Part shown: in pieces, positions 13,581 to 26,281 of the stretch
How positions within the stretch are numbered: position 1 is the first letter of the stretch
Layout of the letters: every line of letters starts with the position of its first letter
Source of the DNA: a virus
IMG/VR virus record: IMGVR_UViG_3300027987_000156
Coordinates: 1 to 39,209 of that record
Length of the DNA stretch: 39,209 nucleotides
Reading direction: 5' to 3' (one strand)
Notes under the pieces: model-generated
Seen by the model: only the letters and a program-made list of their open reading frames with translations
What the model was told of the DNA's origin: nothing
Database searches by the model: none
Program-made: the position numbers and the translations under genes

Positions 13581-15074
13581 TCACTCACCGTCACCACCAC
13601 TACCAACATTGCGCAGTCCTAGCCCATTGCGCCACCTGCGATCACTAGATTTGCTTTCTCGATACCCAAGCTCAGACAGCCGACGGCCGAACGCAGTCAT
13701 TGTTAGGGGGGTCGCCGTCCCGCTCGCACGCGCCCAATCGGCGTACGCCGAATACAGCTGACCTGCAGCGCAACGCGCAGACGGTAAGCGTACGCACATC
13801 TCGAAAATAAATTTGGCTAACTCATCGGACTCTTCTCGCCACTCCCGGGTAGCTGCCATGACAGCCTCTGGGGGACGCAGCCCACCGTCCATCCATTGGG
13901 ACATTCCATCGAGCATCCAGGCCAAGATCCCAGGCGCCTCAGAGCGCATTCGATGTCCAATATTAGGGTCGCGTTCTTCTTCAGGTATCTGTACCTCAAA
14001 TGGTATCAGCCTGAGGCGCCTCCAGATGGCTTCATCGCTGCCGTTCACATCCGGTTTGTGGTTGGTCGCGAGCCAAATTTTGGCTACAGGGACAAACTCG
14101 ACAGGCTCATGGTAGAGCAGCCGAGCGGTCATGGTGTCTCCACCGGTCAGACTCTTGATTCGTGGTTCGTCGAGTTTTCGTCCCTCTTCAGTCTCGATCG
14201 CGGTCACAAATCGAGCGCCCCGTAGCCTCATCAGGTCATTATCAGCGCCGCGCGCCCTGCCTATCGACATCAGCGTGTCGCCCTGTACATGCACCGCATA
14301 GTCCCCCAGCACATACCGCACGGTCTCGAGCAGCGTGCTCTTGCCGTTGGCTCCCAGGTGACCATGGCAAACGAACATGCATTGCTCACCAGTGTGCCCG
14401 GTCAACGAATAGCCGAGTGCCCGCTGCAAAAATGCTCGTATCTCAGGATCTGGCTGTATTCGCTCAAGAAAAGCCTCCCATATAGGCGCCTCAGCGTCGC
14501 GCGCGTAGCCGGTATTGGCCAATCTCGTAATCATGTCTTCTCGCCGGTGAGGCATCATCTCTCCGACATACGTGCCGGTAAGGCATGAGATAGCGCCCGG
14601 GTCACGATCAAACGCATTCGCGCGCACCCTCACTTCTGACAGATCGCGCGCTACGTTCTCTGCAGATGACATCCCCTTCTTGCGTTGCAGCCCAGTCCCC
14701 CAGTCACCTATGCGCTTAGCCTCGGCAGCAAGCGCATTGGCCTCTTCGGCGTTGCCGTTGCGCCTTTCTTTCGCCGATGCAATGCGCAATTGCTTCGCTG
14801 ACATCTCCAGCGACCGCCCGATGTCGTGCAGGCGTCTATGTACCTCGCCCATCTGGTCACGCTGCCATCGCATGCCGTCCCACACGAGCCAATCGAGCTC
14901 TGCGCAATAGCACAGATCAGCCCCATGGCGGCGCACGAGCAGATAGGCGCTCGCCAGGTCAGTGCCAGCAATCACACCAGCAGGCAGCTCGATAGACAGC
15001 GCCTCTGGCACATCGGGAAAATTTGGCTCCTCACCTGCAGGCCAAGAAAAGTCATCACCGCTATCGCCTCGCAT
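13581..15074 (-). CDS. SF3/D5-like replicative helicase
   Basis: A 497-residue helicase with a D5-type N-terminal region and a superfamily 3 ATPase. Walker A is GHLGANGKST (238-247), Walker B FVTAIETEE (289-297), the sensor LATNHKP (335-341), and the following basic WRRLRLIPF stretch may supply the arginine finger. It unwinds DNA ahead of the phage primase; the separate primase gene lies immediately upstream in the transcript. The ATG at 15072-15074 is preceded by GGGAGG, in contrast to the distal GTG at 15123-15125. It overlaps the stop of the 32-residue zinc peptide as TGATG. Confidence 0.9.
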   Translation of the reverse strand: MRGDSGDDFSWPAGEEPNFPDVPEALSIELPAGVIAGTDLASAYLLVRRHGADLCYCAELDWLVWDGMRWQRDQMGEVHRRLHDIGRSLEMSAKQLRIASAKERRNGNAEEANALAAEAKRIGDWGTGLQRKKGMSSAENVARDLSEVRVRANAFDRDPGAISCLTGTYVGEMMPHRREDMITRLANTGYARDAEAPIWEAFLERIQPDPEIRAFLQRALGYSLTGHTGEQCMFVCHGHLGANGKSTLLETVRYVLGDYAVHVQGDTLMSIGRARGADNDLMRLRGARFVTAIETEEGRKLDEPRIKSLTGGDTMTARLLYHEPVEFVPVAKIWLATNHKPDVNGSDEAIWRRLRLIPFEVQIPEEERDPNIGHRMRSEAPGILAWMLDGMSQWMDGGLRPPEAVMAATREWREESDELAKFIFEMCVRLPSARCAAGQLYSAYADWARASGTATPLTMTAFGRRLSELGYRESKSSDRRWRNGLGLRNVGSGGDGE

Positions 15075-15172
15075 CACTGCAGCCTCCCGAGCGGCCGATA
15101 GCCGCAATATAGACACCGCCACCACTCAGGCTGTACCCAGCCACCACAGCGTGGGCACTGACGCCCCGTCAC
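15074..15172 (-). CDS. Zinc-ribbon microprotein between primase and helicase, 32 aa
   Basis: A 32-residue frame starting with GTG at 15170-15172 (GTGA shared with the primase stop) and ending with a TGA that overlaps the helicase ATG. It encodes CPRCGGWVQPEWWRCLYCG, a full C-x-x-C ... C-x-x-C zinc ribbon with aromatic residues between the pairs. The exact stop/start overlaps on both sides and four spaced cysteines make it very likely real. It could bridge primase and helicase or bind DNA. It is easily missed because of its length. Confidence 0.75.
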   Translation of the reverse strand: MTGRQCPRCGGWVQPEWWRCLYCGYRPLGRLQ

Positions 15173-16152
15173 GCAGCGCCTCGAATCCCCAGCAGCGCCA
15201 GCCAGTCGGCTGCCTGCAGTCGGGCGCAGTGGGCGTGCAGGCATCGCAGACACCCTAGCGTCTGACCGGCTCCGGGGGCAATGAGCACCGTCGACCCGTC
15301 ACCTTCACGCCCGCTGGTGTGCTGGCCTGCATTCGGGCATCTGATCACCCACCCTAGACGATGGGACGCCAACACGTCACCACGGGCCTCTAACGCCTCA
15401 TAGAGCGCCCCACGAGGATCCGAGCTCCATACAGCAGGCACGCGCTGGCGCATGCCCTGCAGATTGCCTACGCGCGCCGGCATTCTGGACCGAGGAAACG
15501 CAGTCGGCAGCAGCACCTTTGCGCGCTCAACATGCGCTGCGCTAGGCGCGATGCGCAACACACCTATCTCCGACGGGTCTCCCACGCCGCCCCAATCCTC
15601 GACATCAGAGCCAGCATCACGCATGGCATGGGGCAGGCGATACAGGCGCGTCCAGTCGCCGCAGGCAAGGTCAGCCTCGATGCTGTACTCGGCACCGATC
15701 CACGCGCACGTGACAGCATATCGAGCTCTCCATAGCGCAGCGTCGCGCGGCGTCCGCAAGGCCATCGGCTCGATCCGATAGACGATGCGCGCGCCACCAC
15801 GCGTGTGGTACAGATACCCACCTGGATGGTCCGAAAGAAGGCCTGCAAATCGTCGCTCGAGCTCGGCGCGCCAGCTGGCCGGAGCAGGCTCGGATGTCCC
15901 GTGCACCGCGGCGCAGTCGACATCGAGCACCAGGCATGTCATCTCCACGTCGACCTGCCCCACGGAGGCAGTGCTCAGACGCCGCTGTCGGTCGCTACGG
16001 TAGGCCCCAAAATGCGCGTCAGAAGCGTACGTCGACATCAGCGCGTATGACAGCGGTACCGAGTAGCAGCGCCGCCCACGAGCATGGACCGGCCAGGAGC
16101 GCACGCGGGGGTGACGCATAATCGTGACGTGCGGCTGAGCACACGACGACAT
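15169..16152 (-). CDS. AEP-type DNA primase
   Basis: A 327-residue protein of the archaeo-eukaryotic primase (prim-pol) type. The catalytic D-x-D-like motif is in LVLDVDC (74-80), with TRGGARIVYRIE (117-128) and DWTRLYRLPH (166-175) forming the other active-site strands. The C-terminus carries a Cys/His zinc site (CPNAGQHTSG and LGCLRCLHAHCA) that may bind DNA template. It makes primers for the adjacent helicase. The start chosen is the ATG at 16150-16152, overlapping the preceding stop as TGATG. Confidence 0.8.
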   Translation of the reverse strand: MSSCAQPHVTIMRHPRVRSWPVHARGRRCYSVPLSYALMSTYASDAHFGAYRSDRQRRLSTASVGQVDVEMTCLVLDVDCAAVHGTSEPAPASWRAELERRFAGLLSDHPGGYLYHTRGGARIVYRIEPMALRTPRDAALWRARYAVTCAWIGAEYSIEADLACGDWTRLYRLPHAMRDAGSDVEDWGGVGDPSEIGVLRIAPSAAHVERAKVLLPTAFPRSRMPARVGNLQGMRQRVPAVWSSDPRGALYEALEARGDVLASHRLGWVIRCPNAGQHTSGREGDGSTVLIAPGAGQTLGCLRCLHAHCARLQAADWLALLGIRGAA

Positions 16153-16442
16153 CAGCCGCCATTCACCCAATACATCCCATGTGCCTTCTCACGCTCGATC
16201 TCAGGATAGCCCCGCCAACGCTTCCGCGTCATCCGGCAGACGTCATCGGGTACGCAGCGCCACCGAGCGCGGCCCCCCTCGGGGCACAGGCGCTCCAGGC
16301 GTACGCTGTGCACCATCCTCGCGTACCGCGGCGTAACGGAGCGTAGGTACCCCGTATTGCCGCATTTAGGGCAGACGCCCAGGACGATCTTGGCTGCCAG
16401 CGCCACGCCAGGGGGATACTTGGTGTAGTCAATACGTGTCAT
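16152..16442 (-). CDS. Zinc-ribbon protein, 96 aa
   Basis: It has one clear C-x-x-C pair (GVCPKCGNTGYLRSV) and later cysteines in RLCPEGG and DDVCRM, suggesting a zinc-binding domain in a basic protein (RKRWRGYPEIEREKAHG). Its start overlaps the repressor stop by ATGA and its stop overlaps the primase start. Being the second gene in the leftward unit, it may regulate or assist replication. The family was not identified. Confidence 0.65.
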   Translation of the reverse strand: MTRIDYTKYPPGVALAAKIVLGVCPKCGNTGYLRSVTPRYARMVHSVRLERLCPEGGRARWRCVPDDVCRMTRKRWRGYPEIEREKAHGMYWVNGG

Positions 16443-16678
16443 CGCGCATCGCTCTCCGCCGTGCAGTCGCCCGGCTCGTCCGGCTCGGTAGTCCAGGCCT
16501 CTGGAGGGATCCCCACCACATGATGGATCCTACACGCGAGCTCCAGGCCGGGCCTGCGCTCTCCACGCTCGATTCGTCCCAGAGCTGTCGCGTCCGACCC
16601 GATCTCCGTCGCCGCCATAGTCAGCGACCGATAATGCCGCCAATCCCGAAGTCGCCTCGCCGCCTCTGTCCTGTCCAT
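16439..16678 (-). CDS. XRE/Cro-type transcription regulator
   Basis: A 79-residue protein containing the HTH typical of the phage Cro/CI-like XRE family: RSLTMAATEIGSDATALGRI, followed by ERGERRP, which matches the conserved E-x-G motif after helix 3. It is the first gene of the leftward unit and faces the rightward unit across a 131-base region containing paired operator-like sequences. It probably represses one or both divergent promoters. There is no obvious multimerisation or cleavage domain, so it is more Cro-like than CI-like. Confidence 0.85.
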   Translation of the reverse strand: MDRTEAARRLRDWRHYRSLTMAATEIGSDATALGRIERGERRPGLELACRIHHVVGIPPEAWTTEPDEPGDCTAESDAR

Positions 16679-16809: not shown

Positions 16810-17451
16810 ATGACTACAGAGACCCACCCAGTTGTCGAAATGATCCTCGACATCATTGCGGAGCGTGAGCAGTGCCCCACCCTGCAGGTATTCACCGAGC
16901 TCGCCAGTGAGCTGTGTGGCGAGCTGGCGCGTGACTGGCCTGACGCGGTAGCTGAGTACGCCGCGGCGCTCGACGCCTGTCACATGTGCGGCGGCGCTGG
17001 CGCCGTCGAAGCCGCGAAGAATCCGAGGTACGCGTGCAATGGAGGCACGGCAGAGTGCCCCGTGTGCTGGTCCAGCGGAGACGCCAGCGAGCCCTGCACC
17101 CCTCCCACGCTGGACGCAGTGCAGACGGCCCCGCTGACTCCCACCGCATTCTGCCCCTCGCAGAGCGAGCAGGACGCGATGGAGACCATGCGCGGCACGG
17201 TGCCCATGATGACTGCTGCGCAGTCAGACGTGCTGGACGCCTACCAGCAGCTGTGCTCGACCCCCCCCGTCGAGCTCACCGCGCGCGCGAAGGCATTCGC
17301 GAGCGAGTGCATCTGCGAGCACCGCTTTCTCGTCGACGGCGACGATGTCCGCGTGTGGGACGATGTGGCCGGGCACTACACGACGTGCCATGCCCTGGGC
17401 GCATCTGCCGTGCGGCGCATCCGCCGCATTGCTGCCGAGGTGGCGTCATGA
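16810..17451 (+). CDS. Cysteine-rich early protein, 213 aa
   Basis: The first gene of the rightward unit. The start at 16810 is chosen because the purine-rich GGGGAGAGCGAGAGAC precedes the ATG. After a helical N-terminal stretch, residues about 57-97 contain a zinc-finger-like cluster (CHMCGGAG, later CPVCW and a further Cys), reminiscent of DnaJ-type C-x-x-C-x-G repeats. The C-terminal half carries the conserved-looking WDDVAGHYTTCHALGAS. It shares ATGA with the first pentapeptide-repeat gene. The function is unknown; a host-takeover or regulatory protein is plausible. Confidence 0.7.
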   Translation: MTTETHPVVEMILDIIAEREQCPTLQVFTELASELCGELARDWPDAVAEYAAALDACHMCGGAGAVEAAKNPRYACNGGTAECPVCWSSGDASEPCTPPTLDAVQTAPLTPTAFCPSQSEQDAMETMRGTVPMMTAAQSDVLDAYQQLCSTPPVELTARAKAFASECICEHRFLVDGDDVRVWDDVAGHYTTCHALGASAVRRIRRIAAEVAS

Positions 17452-18212
17452 GCATCATCCGCATTCAACTCGAGGCGCACGCCGAACGCAATCGCCAAGA
17501 GATGGCGCATGGCCGCACGCGCACGCCATGGTCCGGTGGATGGCTCGCTGGCGCAGACCTCGTGGGCGCCAACCTCGCGCACGTTTGCCTCACTGGCGCC
17601 AACCTCACATGCGCCAATCTCACGGGCGCCGACCTCGTGGGTGCCGATCTGGTGCACTCCAACCTCGTGGGAGCAAAACTCACGGATGCCATCCTCACAC
17701 ACGCCGATCTCGAGGTCGCTAATCTCGCTGATGCCAACCTCTATCGCGTCAACCTAACTGGCGCCAACCTCTATCGCGCAAACCTCACACAAGCCAAACT
17801 CATTGGCGCCGACCTCACACATGCCAACCTCTATCGCGCCGACCTAACTGGCGCCAACCTCACTCACGCCAGCCTCTATCGCGCCAAGCACGCCGACACC
17901 ACGGGCGCAACGTGGCTACGCCGCCCCGACATGCCAGACCCATCCGAGCTACGCGCCCGCGTAGCCGATCACATCGCAGCGCACCCGAAGCTACACGCTC
18001 AGGGTGAGTGGGGCGACGGCAGCGGCGAGCCTGCGTGCCAGACGCCGTGCTGCGTCGCTGGCTGGGCGTGCCACCTGGGCGGTGGCAGCTATGGTCTCGA
18101 AGTGCCTACGGCCGCGACGATCCTGCTGCACGTCGACGGTCAGCCCATGCCGTCATTCGTAGCTGCTGCTACGCGTGATGAGATACTTCGCGCACTCCGA
18201 GGTGAGTCATGA
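17448..18212 (+). CDS. Pentapeptide-repeat protein 1 with C-terminal CCVAGWAC domain
   Basis: A 254-residue protein. Residues 1-31 form a shared N-terminal cap (QLEAHAERNRQEM then RTPWSGG). About 22 pentapeptides of type A(D/N)LxG follow, predicted to fold as a right-handed four-sided beta helix. The C-terminal ~95 residues are a domain shared with three of the paralogues, with PACQTPCCVAGWACHLGGG and ending LRGES. Pentapeptide proteins such as MfpA and Qnr mimic DNA and bind gyrase, a possible but unproven role here. It shares ATGA with both neighbours. Confidence 0.9.
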   Translation: MSIIRIQLEAHAERNRQEMAHGRTRTPWSGGWLAGADLVGANLAHVCLTGANLTCANLTGADLVGADLVHSNLVGAKLTDAILTHADLEVANLADANLYRVNLTGANLYRANLTQAKLIGADLTHANLYRADLTGANLTHASLYRAKHADTTGATWLRRPDMPDPSELRARVADHIAAHPKLHAQGEWGDGSGEPACQTPCCVAGWACHLGGGSYGLEVPTAATILLHVDGQPMPSFVAAATRDEILRALRGES

Positions 18213-18901
18213 ACATCCGAGAACAACTCGAGGCGCACGCCGAACGCAATCGCCAAGAGGTGGCGAGCGGCCGCGCGCGTACGCCATGGTCCGGGGGATC
18301 GCTTGCTGGCGCTAAGCTCGCGGGAGCCGATCTCGAAGGCGCCAACCTCGCGTACACCGATCTCGAAGGCGCCGATCTTGAAGACGCCGACCTCACCGAC
18401 GCCGAGCTCTATCGCGTCGACCTAACGAACGCCTATCTCAGTGAGGCCAATATCACTGAGGCCAATCTCACTGAGGCCAACCTCACTAACGCCGATCTCA
18501 CTAACGCCTACCTCACGGGCACCGACTTCTTTGGCGCCGATCTTACCGGCGCCGCTCTCGAAGGCGTCGACCTCACAGACGCCGATATCACGGGCGCCAC
18601 GGGTCTACGCCGCCCCGGCATGCCAGACCCATCTGAGCTACGACGACGCGTAGCCGATCACATCGCCATGCATCCGGAGCTACACGCTCAGGAGGAGTGG
18701 GGCGACGGCAGCGCCGAGCCTGCGTGCCAGACGCCGTGCTGCGTCGCTGGCTGGGCGTGCCATCTTGGCGGTGGCACCTACGGTCTCGAAGTGCCTACGG
18801 CTGCGACGATCCTGTTGCATGTCGACGGTCAGCCTATGCCGTCTTTCGACACCGTCGCTACGCGTGATGAGATACTTCGCGCACTCCGAGGTGAGTCATG
18901 A
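18209..18901 (+). CDS. Pentapeptide-repeat protein 2 with C-terminal CCVAGWAC domain
   Basis: A 230-residue paralogue with about 19 pentapeptides. Its repeats are notably acidic (ADLEGANLAYTDLEGADLED), which would give a negatively charged helix surface as in DNA-mimic pentapeptide proteins. Cap and C-terminal domain match protein 1 (CCVAGWACHLGGGTYGLEV). The GAGGTGAG at the end of gene 1, read there as LRGES codons, supplies the ribosome-binding site. Confidence 0.9.
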   Translation: MNIREQLEAHAERNRQEVASGRARTPWSGGSLAGAKLAGADLEGANLAYTDLEGADLEDADLTDAELYRVDLTNAYLSEANITEANLTEANLTNADLTNAYLTGTDFFGADLTGAALEGVDLTDADITGATGLRRPGMPDPSELRRRVADHIAMHPELHAQEEWGDGSAEPACQTPCCVAGWACHLGGGTYGLEVPTAATILLHVDGQPMPSFDTVATRDEILRALRGES

Positions 18902-19590
18902 ACATCCGCAAGCAACTCGAGGCGCACGCCGAACGCAACCGACAAGAGATGGAGAGTGGGCGCGCGCGCACGCCATGGTCCGGGGGATCGCTCGCTGACG
19001 CCAAGCTCGCGGGCGCCAACCTCGAATGCGCCTACCTCATGGGCGCAAAACTCATGGGCGCCAACCTCTCTCGCGCCGACCTCACACGCGCCGACCTCAC
19101 ACGCGCCGATCTCACTTGCGCCAAACTCACGCTCGCCAACCTCACACGCGCCAACCTCTATCGCGCCAACCTCACATACGCCAACCTCGAATGCGCCGAC
19201 ATCATGGGCGCCAGTCTCGCGTATGCCGACCTCACCGGCGCCGATCTCACTGACGCCTATCTCACAGACGCCAACATCACTCGCGCCATGGGTCTACGCC
19301 GCCCAGGCATGCCAGACCCATCTAAGCTACGTAGACGCGTAGCCGATCACATCGAGGCGCATCCAGAGCTACACGATCAAGGCAAGTGGGGCGACGGCAG
19401 TGCCGAGCCTGCATGCCAGACTCCATGCTGCGTCGCTGGATGGGCGTGCCATCTGGGCGGTGGCAGCTATGGTCTCGAAGTGCCTACGGCCGCAAAGATC
19501 CTGCTGCACGTCGACGGTCAGCCCATGCCGTCATTCGACTCCGACACTAAGCGTGAGGAAATCCTCGCGGCACTCCGAGGTGAGTCATGA
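18898..19590 (+). CDS. Pentapeptide-repeat protein 3 with C-terminal CCVAGWAC domain
   Basis: A 230-residue paralogue with about 19 pentapeptides, richer in Arg and Met at outward positions (ANLSRADLTRADLTRADLTC) than protein 2. The different surface charge suggests a different partner. The C-terminal domain is again complete, with SELR replaced by SKLR and CCVAGWACHLGGG retained. It overlaps the flanking genes by ATGA. Confidence 0.9.
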   Translation: MNIRKQLEAHAERNRQEMESGRARTPWSGGSLADAKLAGANLECAYLMGAKLMGANLSRADLTRADLTRADLTCAKLTLANLTRANLYRANLTYANLECADIMGASLAYADLTGADLTDAYLTDANITRAMGLRRPGMPDPSKLRRRVADHIEAHPELHDQGKWGDGSAEPACQTPCCVAGWACHLGGGSYGLEVPTAAKILLHVDGQPMPSFDSDTKREEILAALRGES

Positions 19591-20531
19591 ACATCCGCAA
19601 GCAACTCGAGGCGCATGCCAAACGCAACCGCATCCGAGAACAACTCGAGGCGCACGCCGCTCGCAACCGCCAAGAGATGCGGGGGATACGGCGCGCGCGC
19701 ACGCCATGGTCCGGTGGCTCGCTTGTTGACGCCGAACTCGCGGGCGCCTACCTCGAGGGCGTCAACCTCGCGGGCGCCGATCTCACGGGCACCGACTTCT
19801 CGGATTCTTCGCTCTCTCTCGCCAACCTCTCTCATGTCTACCTAACGGGCGCCAACCTCGCTGGCGCCACCCTCACTGACGCCAATCTCACTCGCGTCAA
19901 TCTCTATTGCGCCGGTCTCACTGGCGCCGATCTCACTGGCGCCAAGCTTTATCGCGCCAGGCTCTGTCGCGCCAGGCTCTGTCGCGCCAACCTCACTGAC
20001 ACCGATCTCACGGGCGCCGAGCTCACAAACGCTAACCTCACATGCGCAAAACTCACAGGCGCCAATCTCGCTGACGCCTACCTTGCTGGCGCCGATCTCA
20101 CTGCCGCCAACCTCGCGGGCTCCAACCTCTATCGTGCCAAGCTCATGAACGCCAACCTCACTGGCGCCGATCTCACTGGCGCCGACATCGAAGGCGCAGA
20201 TCTCACTGGCGCCATCCTTATGGGCGCCACGGGTCTACGCCGCCCCGACATGCCAGACCCATCCGAGCTACGCGCCCGCGTAGCCGACCACATCGAGGCG
20301 CATCCGGAGCTGCACGATCAGGAGAAGTGGGGCGACGGCAGAGCCGACCCTGCATGCCAGTCTTCGTGCTGCGTCGCTGGATGGGCATGCCACCTTGGCG
20401 GTGGCACCTACGGTCTCGAAGTGCCTACGGCTGCGACTATCCTGCTGCATGTCGACGGTCAGCCCATGCCGTCATTCGAAGCCTACGCTACGCGTGAGGA
20501 GATACTCGCAGCGCTCCGAGGCGAGTCATGA
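19587..20531 (+). CDS. Pentapeptide-repeat protein 4, longest paralogue
   Basis: A 314-residue paralogue with about 33 pentapeptides. The cap has been duplicated (IRKQLEAHAKRN followed by IREQLEAHAARN), and the repeats include unusual pentads with Cys and Arg (AKLYRARLCRARLCR). The C-terminal domain is present but one of its cysteine-flanking residues differs (ACQSSCCVAGWAC). The extra repeats suggest expansion by unequal recombination between 15-bp units. It shares ATGA with genes 3 and 5. Confidence 0.9.
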   Translation: MNIRKQLEAHAKRNRIREQLEAHAARNRQEMRGIRRARTPWSGGSLVDAELAGAYLEGVNLAGADLTGTDFSDSSLSLANLSHVYLTGANLAGATLTDANLTRVNLYCAGLTGADLTGAKLYRARLCRARLCRANLTDTDLTGAELTNANLTCAKLTGANLADAYLAGADLTAANLAGSNLYRAKLMNANLTGADLTGADIEGADLTGAILMGATGLRRPDMPDPSELRARVADHIEAHPELHDQEKWGDGRADPACQSSCCVAGWACHLGGGTYGLEVPTAATILLHVDGQPMPSFEAYATREEILAALRGES

Positions 20532-21070
20532 ACATCCGAGAACAACTCGAGGCGCACGCCAAGCGCAACCGCCAAGAAGTGGCGAGTAGGCGCGCGCGCA
20601 CGCCATGGTCCGGGGGATCGCTTGCTGGCACCAAGCTCGCGGGCGCCAATCTCGAATGCGCCAACCTCTATCGCGCCGAGCTCGGAGGCGCCGAGCTCGG
20701 AGGCGCCGACCTCATTGGCGCCAACCTCACATACGCCAACCTCACGCGCGCCGACCTCATTGGCGCCAACCTCTATCACGCCAACCTCACTGGTGCCAAC
20801 CTCACGGGCGCCAACCTCACGGGCGCCAACCTCACGCGCGCCGATCTCGAGGACGCCAAGCTCACGGGTGCCAACCTCACACGCGCCAAGCTCATTGGCG
20901 CCAACCTCTATTACGCCAATCTCACGGGTGCCAACCTCACACGCACCGACCTAATGGGCGCCAGTCTCGCGTATGCCGCTCTCACCGGCGCAGACATCAC
21001 TGACGCCGACCTTACTGACGTCTATCTCGATGGCGCAAACCTCGATGAAGCCGTGGTGAAGAATGACTAA
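20528..21070 (+). CDS. Pentapeptide-repeat protein 5, without the C-terminal domain
   Basis: A 180-residue paralogue with the common cap and about 28 pentapeptides, among the most regular (ANLTGANLTGANLTGANLT). It ends after the last pentads at DEAVVKND and lacks the CCVAGWAC domain, so it is close in size and layout to stand-alone pentapeptide proteins of the MfpA/Qnr size class. Its stop overlaps the next gene. Loss of the C-terminal domain may be by recombination at the end of the array. Confidence 0.9.
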   Translation: MNIREQLEAHAKRNRQEVASRRARTPWSGGSLAGTKLAGANLECANLYRAELGGAELGGADLIGANLTYANLTRADLIGANLYHANLTGANLTGANLTGANLTRADLEDAKLTGANLTRAKLIGANLYYANLTGANLTRTDLMGASLAYAALTGADITDADLTDVYLDGANLDEAVVKND

Positions 21071-24021: not shown

Positions 24022-24963
24022 ATGCCCCGTGCCACCCATTCGTCTGTTACGCGAGATTCAAGTCCGGCAGACCTGAAAACGCTACGAGGTAAGCTAAGCA
24101 GCTTCCGATCACGCACAGCGGACGGGTGGGGGACTGGCATCCTCGAGACTGATGTGGCTGGTGATGTCGCCGTTACAGGAAAGCTGCCAAGCATACAGCC
24201 AGGCGACACTGTAGAAGTCGAAGGGAGGTGGAAGGCTCACCCGCGTTATGGTGACCAGTTCCAGGTCCTGAGCGCGGTGGCTTGCGAGCCGCAGGGAGCC
24301 GAAGGTCGCGTCGCGTGGTTAGCAGAAAGGCTGCCCAACATCGGCCCACAACGCGCGCGCGCGCTTGTGGACGCATTCGGCGACAAATTGTGGGAAACCA
24401 TCGAAGAGCAGCCTGACTGGCTTGCCAGTGTAAATGGTATTACCGTTGCTATGGCGCGGGATATAGCAGAGGTGTACTCGCGCCACAAAGGCGAGCGCGA
24501 TGCCATGATCAGGCTACGCGAATGGGGGCTAACCAATAGCCAAGTCGGCCGCTGTGTCGATTATTGGGGATGCCTCGATGCTGTCATTCGTGCGTTGTCC
24601 GAAGACCCCTATGACCTATGCGTGCATATCTATGGATTTGGGTTTGTGCGCGCGGATGCCATCGCGCGCAAGATGGGTGTCCCGCGCGAGGCCCCGACAA
24701 GAATACGCGCATGTCTGGACTATGTATTGGCCGATGCGCAGCAAGCAGGGCATTGCTACATGTCCGGCAAACGGCTCCAGGAAGCCGCGGCGCAAGTGCT
24801 AGGGATCGATAAAGGCGTGGTTGGTCAACACATGCTCGATAGCGCCGGGAGTGGCCGCTTGGTGCGCCGAGGTTGGCGCTGGTATTCACGCCATATCGAC
24901 ATGGCGGAAGCAACATGTGCAGACAGACTGAGAGCGATGATTGGGGAAGACGATGGGCAATAG
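24022..24963 (+). CDS. RecD2-like N-terminal part (split helicase)
   Basis: A 313-residue protein matching the N-terminal domains of RecD2: an OB-like region (GDVAVTGKLPSIQPGDTVEV and GDQFQVLSAVACEPQG), then helix-hairpin-helix units (LPNIGPQRARALVDAFGDKL and VNGITVAMARDIAEVY), and a helical region to DDGQ. It has no ATPase motifs. The ATPase half is the next gene, in another frame, whose ATG lies eight bases before this stop. Together they make about 755 residues, comparable to RecD2. Either two subunits form one helicase or a frameshift joins them. Confidence 0.75.
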   Translation: MPRATHSSVTRDSSPADLKTLRGKLSSFRSRTADGWGTGILETDVAGDVAVTGKLPSIQPGDTVEVEGRWKAHPRYGDQFQVLSAVACEPQGAEGRVAWLAERLPNIGPQRARALVDAFGDKLWETIEEQPDWLASVNGITVAMARDIAEVYSRHKGERDAMIRLREWGLTNSQVGRCVDYWGCLDAVIRALSEDPYDLCVHIYGFGFVRADAIARKMGVPREAPTRIRACLDYVLADAQQAGHCYMSGKRLQEAAAQVLGIDKGVVGQHMLDSAGSGRLVRRGWRWYSRHIDMAEATCADRLRAMIGEDDGQ

Positions 24964-26281
24964 CGCAACGGATGAATCCCCCCCCGAGCTCTGCGATGAT
25001 GATGTCCCGTTTGATGAAAGTCTCTCTGGCAATCCGGCCAGTGAGCCACCGGCGCCGTGTGCTCTGCAGATGAAAAGCACCCCTCAAGCGGCGCCGGTGG
25101 CCTTCTCCCTTGACCCAATCCAGCAGCAAGCGGTCGCGCTTGCAGTGGCTAAGCCGCCTGGATGCGGCATCATCACAGGCGGTCCGGGCACCGGTAAGAG
25201 CACATGCCTGCGCCACGCACTCGACAGACTAGACTCCGAGCAATGCAGCTACGAGCTAGCCTCGCCTACCGGCAAGGCCGCAAAGAGAATGAGCGAAGCA
25301 ACGGGGCGTCCAGCGCGCACCATCCATCGGCTACTCGAATACAAGCCTTATGAAGGTGGCTTTGCGCGCAATGAGAATTCACCGTTAGAGTGCGACTCTG
25401 TGATAATCGATGAAGCCTCCATGGTGGATATTGAGTTGTTCGCGGCGCTGATGCGCGCAATCAACCCGCAGCATACGAGGCTGACGCTGGTAGGTGATGC
25501 GGATCAGCTCCCGAGTGTGGGGCCAGGCCGCGTACTAGCCGACGTGGTGGAGAGTGGTCGGGTGCCAATCGTGCGGCTGCAGACTGTACATCGCAGCGCA
25601 CGCGACAGCTGGATCTACGCGAATGCTCCTAAGATTCTGCGGGGGAAAACGCCTGACTTGGCGCCGTGCAACGATTTTCGCTTCGAGCGCGCTGATGAAG
25701 CCCGTGACATCCCAGGGATCGTCACGCGTATATTGACCAAAGAATTGCCGCATGAATCAGATGTGCAAGTGCTGTCGCCGCAAAGCACGGGAAAGGCAGG
25801 CACGGGCGCTCTCAACCATGCATTGCAGGAGGCCCTCAACCCGGGGCGCGGTGGGCCATCGATGCCTCGTGGAGACCATGAGCTGCGTGTTGGCGACCGT
25901 GTGATTCAGACCAAAAATAACTACACGCTAGAGGTTTTCAACGGAGAGCTCGGGACAATCGTTTCGTGCGAGAGCAGTCGACTCTTGGTGGATTTTGGTG
26001 ACCGCGAGATAGAGTACGATCTACAAGACGCTAATGCGCTGCAGCTCGCCTATGCGCTGACCGTTCACCGCAGCCAAGGCAGTGAGTTTGATTGGGCGGT
26101 TATCATATGCCACTCAACGCATACGCACATGCTTACCAGGCAGCTGATCTACACGGCCGTCACACGCGCTAAGCATGGTGTAGTGATCGTAGGGAATGAC
26201 AAGGGACTAAGGGTAGCCCTGAGTAGCAAGTCTATGCATCGGCGTAACACTGGCCTATTGGAGAGATTGAATGATGACTGA
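24953..26281 (+). CDS. RecD2-like SF1B helicase, ATPase part
   Basis: A 442-residue protein with Walker A GGPGTGKST (76-84), motif Ia SPTGKAAKRM (104-113), Walker B IIDEASMVD (151-159), motif III GDADQLPSVGPG (181-192), and the C-terminal helicase motifs ALTVHRSQGSEFD and LIYTAVTRAKHGVVIVG. It moves 5' to 3' on ssDNA. The N-terminal 50 residues are a disordered linker. The start at 24953 overlaps the previous stop; a TTG at 24941 is an alternative. An eight-C run follows the overlap but is downstream of the stop of the first frame. Confidence 0.9.
   Translation: MGNSATDESPPELCDDDVPFDESLSGNPASEPPAPCALQMKSTPQAAPVAFSLDPIQQQAVALAVAKPPGCGIITGGPGTGKSTCLRHALDRLDSEQCSYELASPTGKAAKRMSEATGRPARTIHRLLEYKPYEGGFARNENSPLECDSVIIDEASMVDIELFAALMRAINPQHTRLTLVGDADQLPSVGPGRVLADVVESGRVPIVRLQTVHRSARDSWIYANAPKILRGKTPDLAPCNDFRFERADEARDIPGIVTRILTKELPHESDVQVLSPQSTGKAGTGALNHALQEALNPGRGGPSMPRGDHELRVGDRVIQTKNNYTLEVFNGELGTIVSCESSRLLVDFGDREIEYDLQDANALQLAYALTVHRSQGSEFDWAVIICHSTHTHMLTRQLIYTAVTRAKHGVVIVGNDKGLRVALSSKSMHRRNTGLLERLNDD

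Follow-up and report, generated by a model that had tools for sequence, protein, structure and literature searches.

The DNA analyzed here, referred to as the window, is a whole virus record of 39,209 bases (IMG/VR IMGVR_UViG_3300027987_000156), which seems to derive from a virus of bacteria or archaea. On its minus strand, a compact cassette runs from a regulator-like gene to a replicative helicase, and a 32-codon open reading frame with a putative zinc-ribbon product lies between the primase and helicase genes. In the order in which they would be transcribed, the features of this region are:

16439..16678, minus strand: HTH_3 regulator-like protein (Pfam match), head of the cassette, ATGA overlap
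16152..16442, minus strand: 96-aa ORF with CPKCG, directly upstream of the primase, TGATG overlap
15169..16152, minus strand: probable archaeo-eukaryotic-type (AEP) primase, 327 aa from the ATG at 16152, assigned by Foldseek and by homology to L216 and L142
15226..15339, minus strand: C/H/C/C zinc module of the primase (CPNAGQHTSG...CLRCLHAHC), aligned with L005 and L216
15179..15182, minus strand: Shine-Dalgarno-like GAGG, 6 nt before the ribbon GTG, within primase codons
15074..15172, minus strand: putative 32-aa C4 zinc-ribbon ORF, GTG start, TGA stop
15083..15087, minus strand: Shine-Dalgarno-like GGAGG, 8 nt before the helicase ATG, within ribbon codons
13581..15074, minus strand: standalone P4/D5-type replicative helicase, 497 aa (D5_N, DUF5906, Pox_D5, TIGR01613, phrog_1156)

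The frame that the initial annotation had described between primase and helicase, 32 residues with CPRCG...RCLYCG, is present exactly: from 15172 to 15074 the minus strand reads VTGRQCPRCGGWVQPEWWRCLYCGYRPLGRLQ* over 32 codons. The four cysteines follow the pattern CPRCG-x9-CLYCG (C-x2-C-x10-C-x2-C), with a glycine after the second cysteine of both CxxC knuckles, and the peptide, with five Arg and one Glu, is basic and has many aromatic residues. Its frame is -1 relative to that of the primase and is open upstream of the primase stop, where it can be extended to 59 aa from a GTG at 15253; hence a longer form that starts upstream of the GTG at 15172 may exist. The overlaps claimed on either side are likewise there, with the primase TGA (15171-15169) overlapping the ribbon start as GTGA and the ribbon TGA (15076-15074) overlapping the helicase ATG (15074-15072) as TGATG. 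The claimed compactness extends to the cassette as a whole: with the ribbon counted, four successive junctions between the HTH gene (16678) and the helicase measure -4, -1, -4, and -1 nt, and without it the primase–helicase gap would be 94 nt, exceeding every other gap in the cassette. The 96-aa ORF further upstream (16152-16442) contains CPKCG and further cysteines, matches no family, and is another possible small zinc protein.

It is plausible from this layout that translation of primase, ribbon, and helicase is coupled. Ribosomes ending the primase would restart at the GTG of GTGA by termination-reinitiation, and those ending the ribbon would go on to the helicase by restarting at the ATG of TGATG, such that one message would yield all three proteins, with the ribbon ORF itself presumably translated. 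A structured RNA element at the locus is unlikely, in that folding showed none beyond shuffled sequences (z-score -0.23). The sole Rfam match, to the HDV-like CPEB3 ribozyme (15236-15299, minus strand; 20.6 bits versus 35, E 0.44 for the window), is full-length and falls within the codons of the primase zinc module, but several of its stem pairs are unformed and it is probably due to chance.

Both neighbors have the identities first proposed for them. The helicase exceeds the Pfam cut-offs for D5_N, DUF5906, and Pox_D5, and scores 277 bits against TIGR01613 (phage/plasmid primase P4 family C-terminal; cut-off 108.7), marking it as a P4/D5-type replicative helicase. The primase, which most likely starts at the ATG at 16152 that overlaps the stop of the 96-aa ORF as TGATG (a TTG at 16170 would give 333 aa), matches no Pfam family. 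Its assignment to the AEP type comes from Foldseek matches that are weak (E 0.16 and above; model pLDDT 56) and mostly to AEP enzymes, among them the LigD polymerase domain, Prim-PolC, CAPP, PriS, and the poxvirus and ASFV primases, together with the conserved motifs DVD, TRGG, and D-x-TRL and homology to two proteins. These two are the only full-length relatives found (36–37% identity): one, in an Anaerolineales MAG (L142), is fused to a D5 helicase, and the other, in an IMG/VR record (L216), to a different ATPase-like region. In a search of 400 genomes from the phylum of L142, only the genome of L142 itself matched. The C-terminal C/H/C/C module of the primase is common to L216 and to Guernseyvirinae helicase-primases. 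Judged by these alignments, the primase is complete with a zinc module of its own, and the ribbon is an additional element.

The relatives of the helicase reveal how such enzymes are usually arranged. Among 213 relatives in alignments (32–44% identity; many are near-identical Bacillus phages, and the counts are therefore not independent), the same frame extends at least 200 residues upstream of the helicase match in 180, and this long upstream region is a primase region in those inspected; the remaining 33 are shorter or are ended by contig ends. Hence AEP primase and D5 helicase appear as one chain in most relatives. Only two of the 213 (L148 and L177) have a C4 motif in the 600 nt preceding the helicase match, and none of the fused primase–helicase relatives has this C4 ribbon at the joint. 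Furthermore, the fused profile phrog_16950, which spans both proteins, has ~26 positions between its primase and helicase parts, where the primase and helicase of the window supply ~33 residues without the ribbon. Since fused relatives have no ribbon at their joint, the ribbon is an extra element and not, as far as sequence comparison can tell, a piece displaced from either enzyme. In L037, two overlapping frames (444-2245) of an SF2-like helicase directly precede a standalone D5 helicase.

The family and fold of the peptide can be described only in general terms. Its best Pfam family is Zn_ribbon_3 (PF13248; E 2.1e-4, 21.1 bits, below the gathering cut-off of 27), followed by DZR (PF12773; 19.5 bits, below the cut-off of 27.3). 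The peptide resembles both in its two CxxC(G) knuckles and differs from them in standing alone, not as part of a larger protein, as well as in its sub-threshold scores. Neither Prim_Zn_Ribbon (PF08273) nor zf-CHC2 matched the ribbon at E up to 0.1 in the Pfam search, and its potential ligands are all four cysteines, not CHCC. AlphaFold, given the single sequence, returned a model with a mean pLDDT of 80.4; Foldseek matches to this model are weak (best E 1.5, none significant singly) but mostly to zinc fingers and ribbons, including NZF and RanBP2-type fingers, ribosomal zinc proteins, and RNA polymerase small subunits. At the sequence level, all tblastn matches of the peptide in phages had E 0.4 or worse (including helicases, NinB, and a transposase), and the best match among PDB sequences was a halogenase (E 0.044). 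These features suggest that the peptide would fold round one zinc ion held by its two CxxCG knuckles.

Could such a frame arise without being a gene? An untranslated spacer that is open and cysteine-rich by accident has in its favor that 27% of off-frame 32-codon windows within large genes are open, such that the open frame alone means little, and that the ribbon was singled out from the whole window. Codon usage does not discriminate: it is uninformative at this length, the unique region of the ribbon scores unlike a typical gene, and the C-terminus of the primase scores no better. The motif is harder to explain in this way. CxxC-x(6-20)-CxxC occurs in 2 of 1,869 start-led, stop-free 32-codon stretches (six frames, whole record), namely the ribbon and one other; this rate of ~1/1,868 other stretches, multiplied by the chance of an open frame, gives ~1e-4 for a given spacer. 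Per shuffled window, the general C4 pattern appears 2.7 times and the CxxCG...CxxCG form 0.03 times. When the two exact overlaps, the Shine-Dalgarno-like sites, and the otherwise gapless cassette are considered as well, an accidental spacer is very unlikely and the ORF is a probable microgene. The same overlaps and Shine-Dalgarno-like sites would also be expected if the ORF were translated merely to carry ribosomes over the primase–helicase junction and thereby set the level of helicase, the peptide itself being inert. This is quite unlikely, in that it leaves both the rare C4 motif and the Zn_ribbon_3 match unexplained, and a primase directly abutting the helicase would couple the two equally well. 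It is also worth considering that the ribbon could be a C-terminal extension of the primase made by -1 frameshifting, or the relic of a fused primase–ribbon–helicase split by indels, given that the ribbon frame lies at -1 to the primase and is already open before the primase stop, and that in most relatives the helicase has a long N-terminal region fused to it. However, frameshifting is unlikely because the final 230 nt of the primase gene contain no slippery heptamer, and a relic would require two indels and is at odds with both the ribbon-free joints of fused relatives and a phrog_16950 joint that the flanking enzymes already fill; we regard the pair as extremely unlikely.

A different question is where a translated ribbon would act. 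A role unrelated to the primosome, such as transcription regulation or host takeover, is unlikely in our estimation, even though small zinc ribbons are found in phage contexts unrelated to primase (as in the pattern scan described below), jumbo-phage zinc ribbons have also been proposed as transcription factors (PMC7824862), and an HTH regulator heads the cassette. That the ORF sits exactly between the primase and helicase genes and overlaps both favors shared function or stoichiometry with these enzymes, but only indirectly. To the reading that this is a genuine, translationally coupled C4 zinc-ribbon microprotein that acts with the split primase–helicase we give an even chance. The ribbon would then probably serve with the flanking products as a ssDNA-binding or docking element, or as a primase–helicase bridge, and might thus help a separate AEP primase to work with the D5 helicase ring. 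Any binding of DNA or protein by the ribbon, and any role in priming, is something we infer, and gene order is the one basis for its tie to the primosome. Nor is a second zinc module needed, given the one within the primase. A more specific proposal, that a split primosome of AEP primase and D5 helicase has the ribbon as its dedicated third subunit, replacing in trans the covalent linker of fused relatives, is tentative and rather doubtful; were it true, the ribbon would be among the smallest replisome subunits.

It is informative to compare this arrangement with known systems. In jumbo phages, a standalone primase-type zinc ribbon lies beside DnaG (PMC7824862), and the ribbon described here is similar in being a separate small zinc ribbon that accompanies a phage primase. 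The partner there is a DnaG/Toprim primase with a primase-type ribbon, whereas here an AEP-like primase and P4/D5 helicase flank a plain C4 peptide of 32 aa. Given that precedent, the arrangement described here can be viewed as an AEP/D5 variant. A Zn-binding or PriCT domain often comes after the AEP domain in mobile elements, where the helicase is either fused or close by (PMC5862659), and the fused AEP-ZnBD/PriCT-helicase proteins of phages and plasmids have the same order of AEP, Zn-binding domain, and helicase. In contrast to these fusions, primase and helicase are separate genes here, the AEP protein keeps its zinc module, and the extra ribbon is a gene of its own. A parallel in layout is found in a Betaproteobacteria MAG (L148), where a small C4 protein directly precedes a split D5-type helicase; this 96-aa protein (phrog_1333, E 0.0036) is longer, has other cysteine spacing and an extra helical-looking part, and is without clear sequence homology to the ribbon. 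The small C4 frame of L148 (3605-3895), directly upstream of the standalone D5 helicase, also has an HPDKH (J-domain-like) motif.

The same primase–ribbon–helicase architecture was not found in IMG/VR, INPHARED, or GTDB species genomes, sets that may omit records very near this virus, such that absence of kin is no proof; single-protein scans of IMG/VR with the helicase and the primase also gave no relatives. A scan for the DNA pattern of a C4 ribbon with TGATG coupling gave at least 14 in frame, none of them near a D5 helicase among the matches listed. The doubly coupled GTGA...TGATG pattern had five matches in IMG/VR, and none was a counterpart between primase and helicase; the only one in frame lacks a primase upstream, and its C4-like peptide, which differs from the ribbon, precedes an unrelated 478-aa frame. 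Ribbon and architecture are thus known from one genome only. If the preferred reading of a microprotein acting with the split enzymes is true, a split primase–helicase would be held together or aided by a minimal zinc ribbon, a very small and testable replisome subunit, inviting the use of primase–helicase junctions as a place to look for missed microgenes.

Elsewhere in the record, five pentapeptide-repeat ORFs lie in tandem, one directly after another, at 16986-21070 on the plus strand (Pfam Pentapeptide in each), and at least two of them share a near-identical C-terminal region with CCVAGWACHLGGG; such an expansion within one phage is unusual. Further along the plus strand (24022-26281), a RecD2-like helicase is apparently split into two overlapping frames, the first (24022-24963) with OB and HHH_RecD2 domains and the second (24941-26281) with a Dda/exonuclease V-like ATPase.
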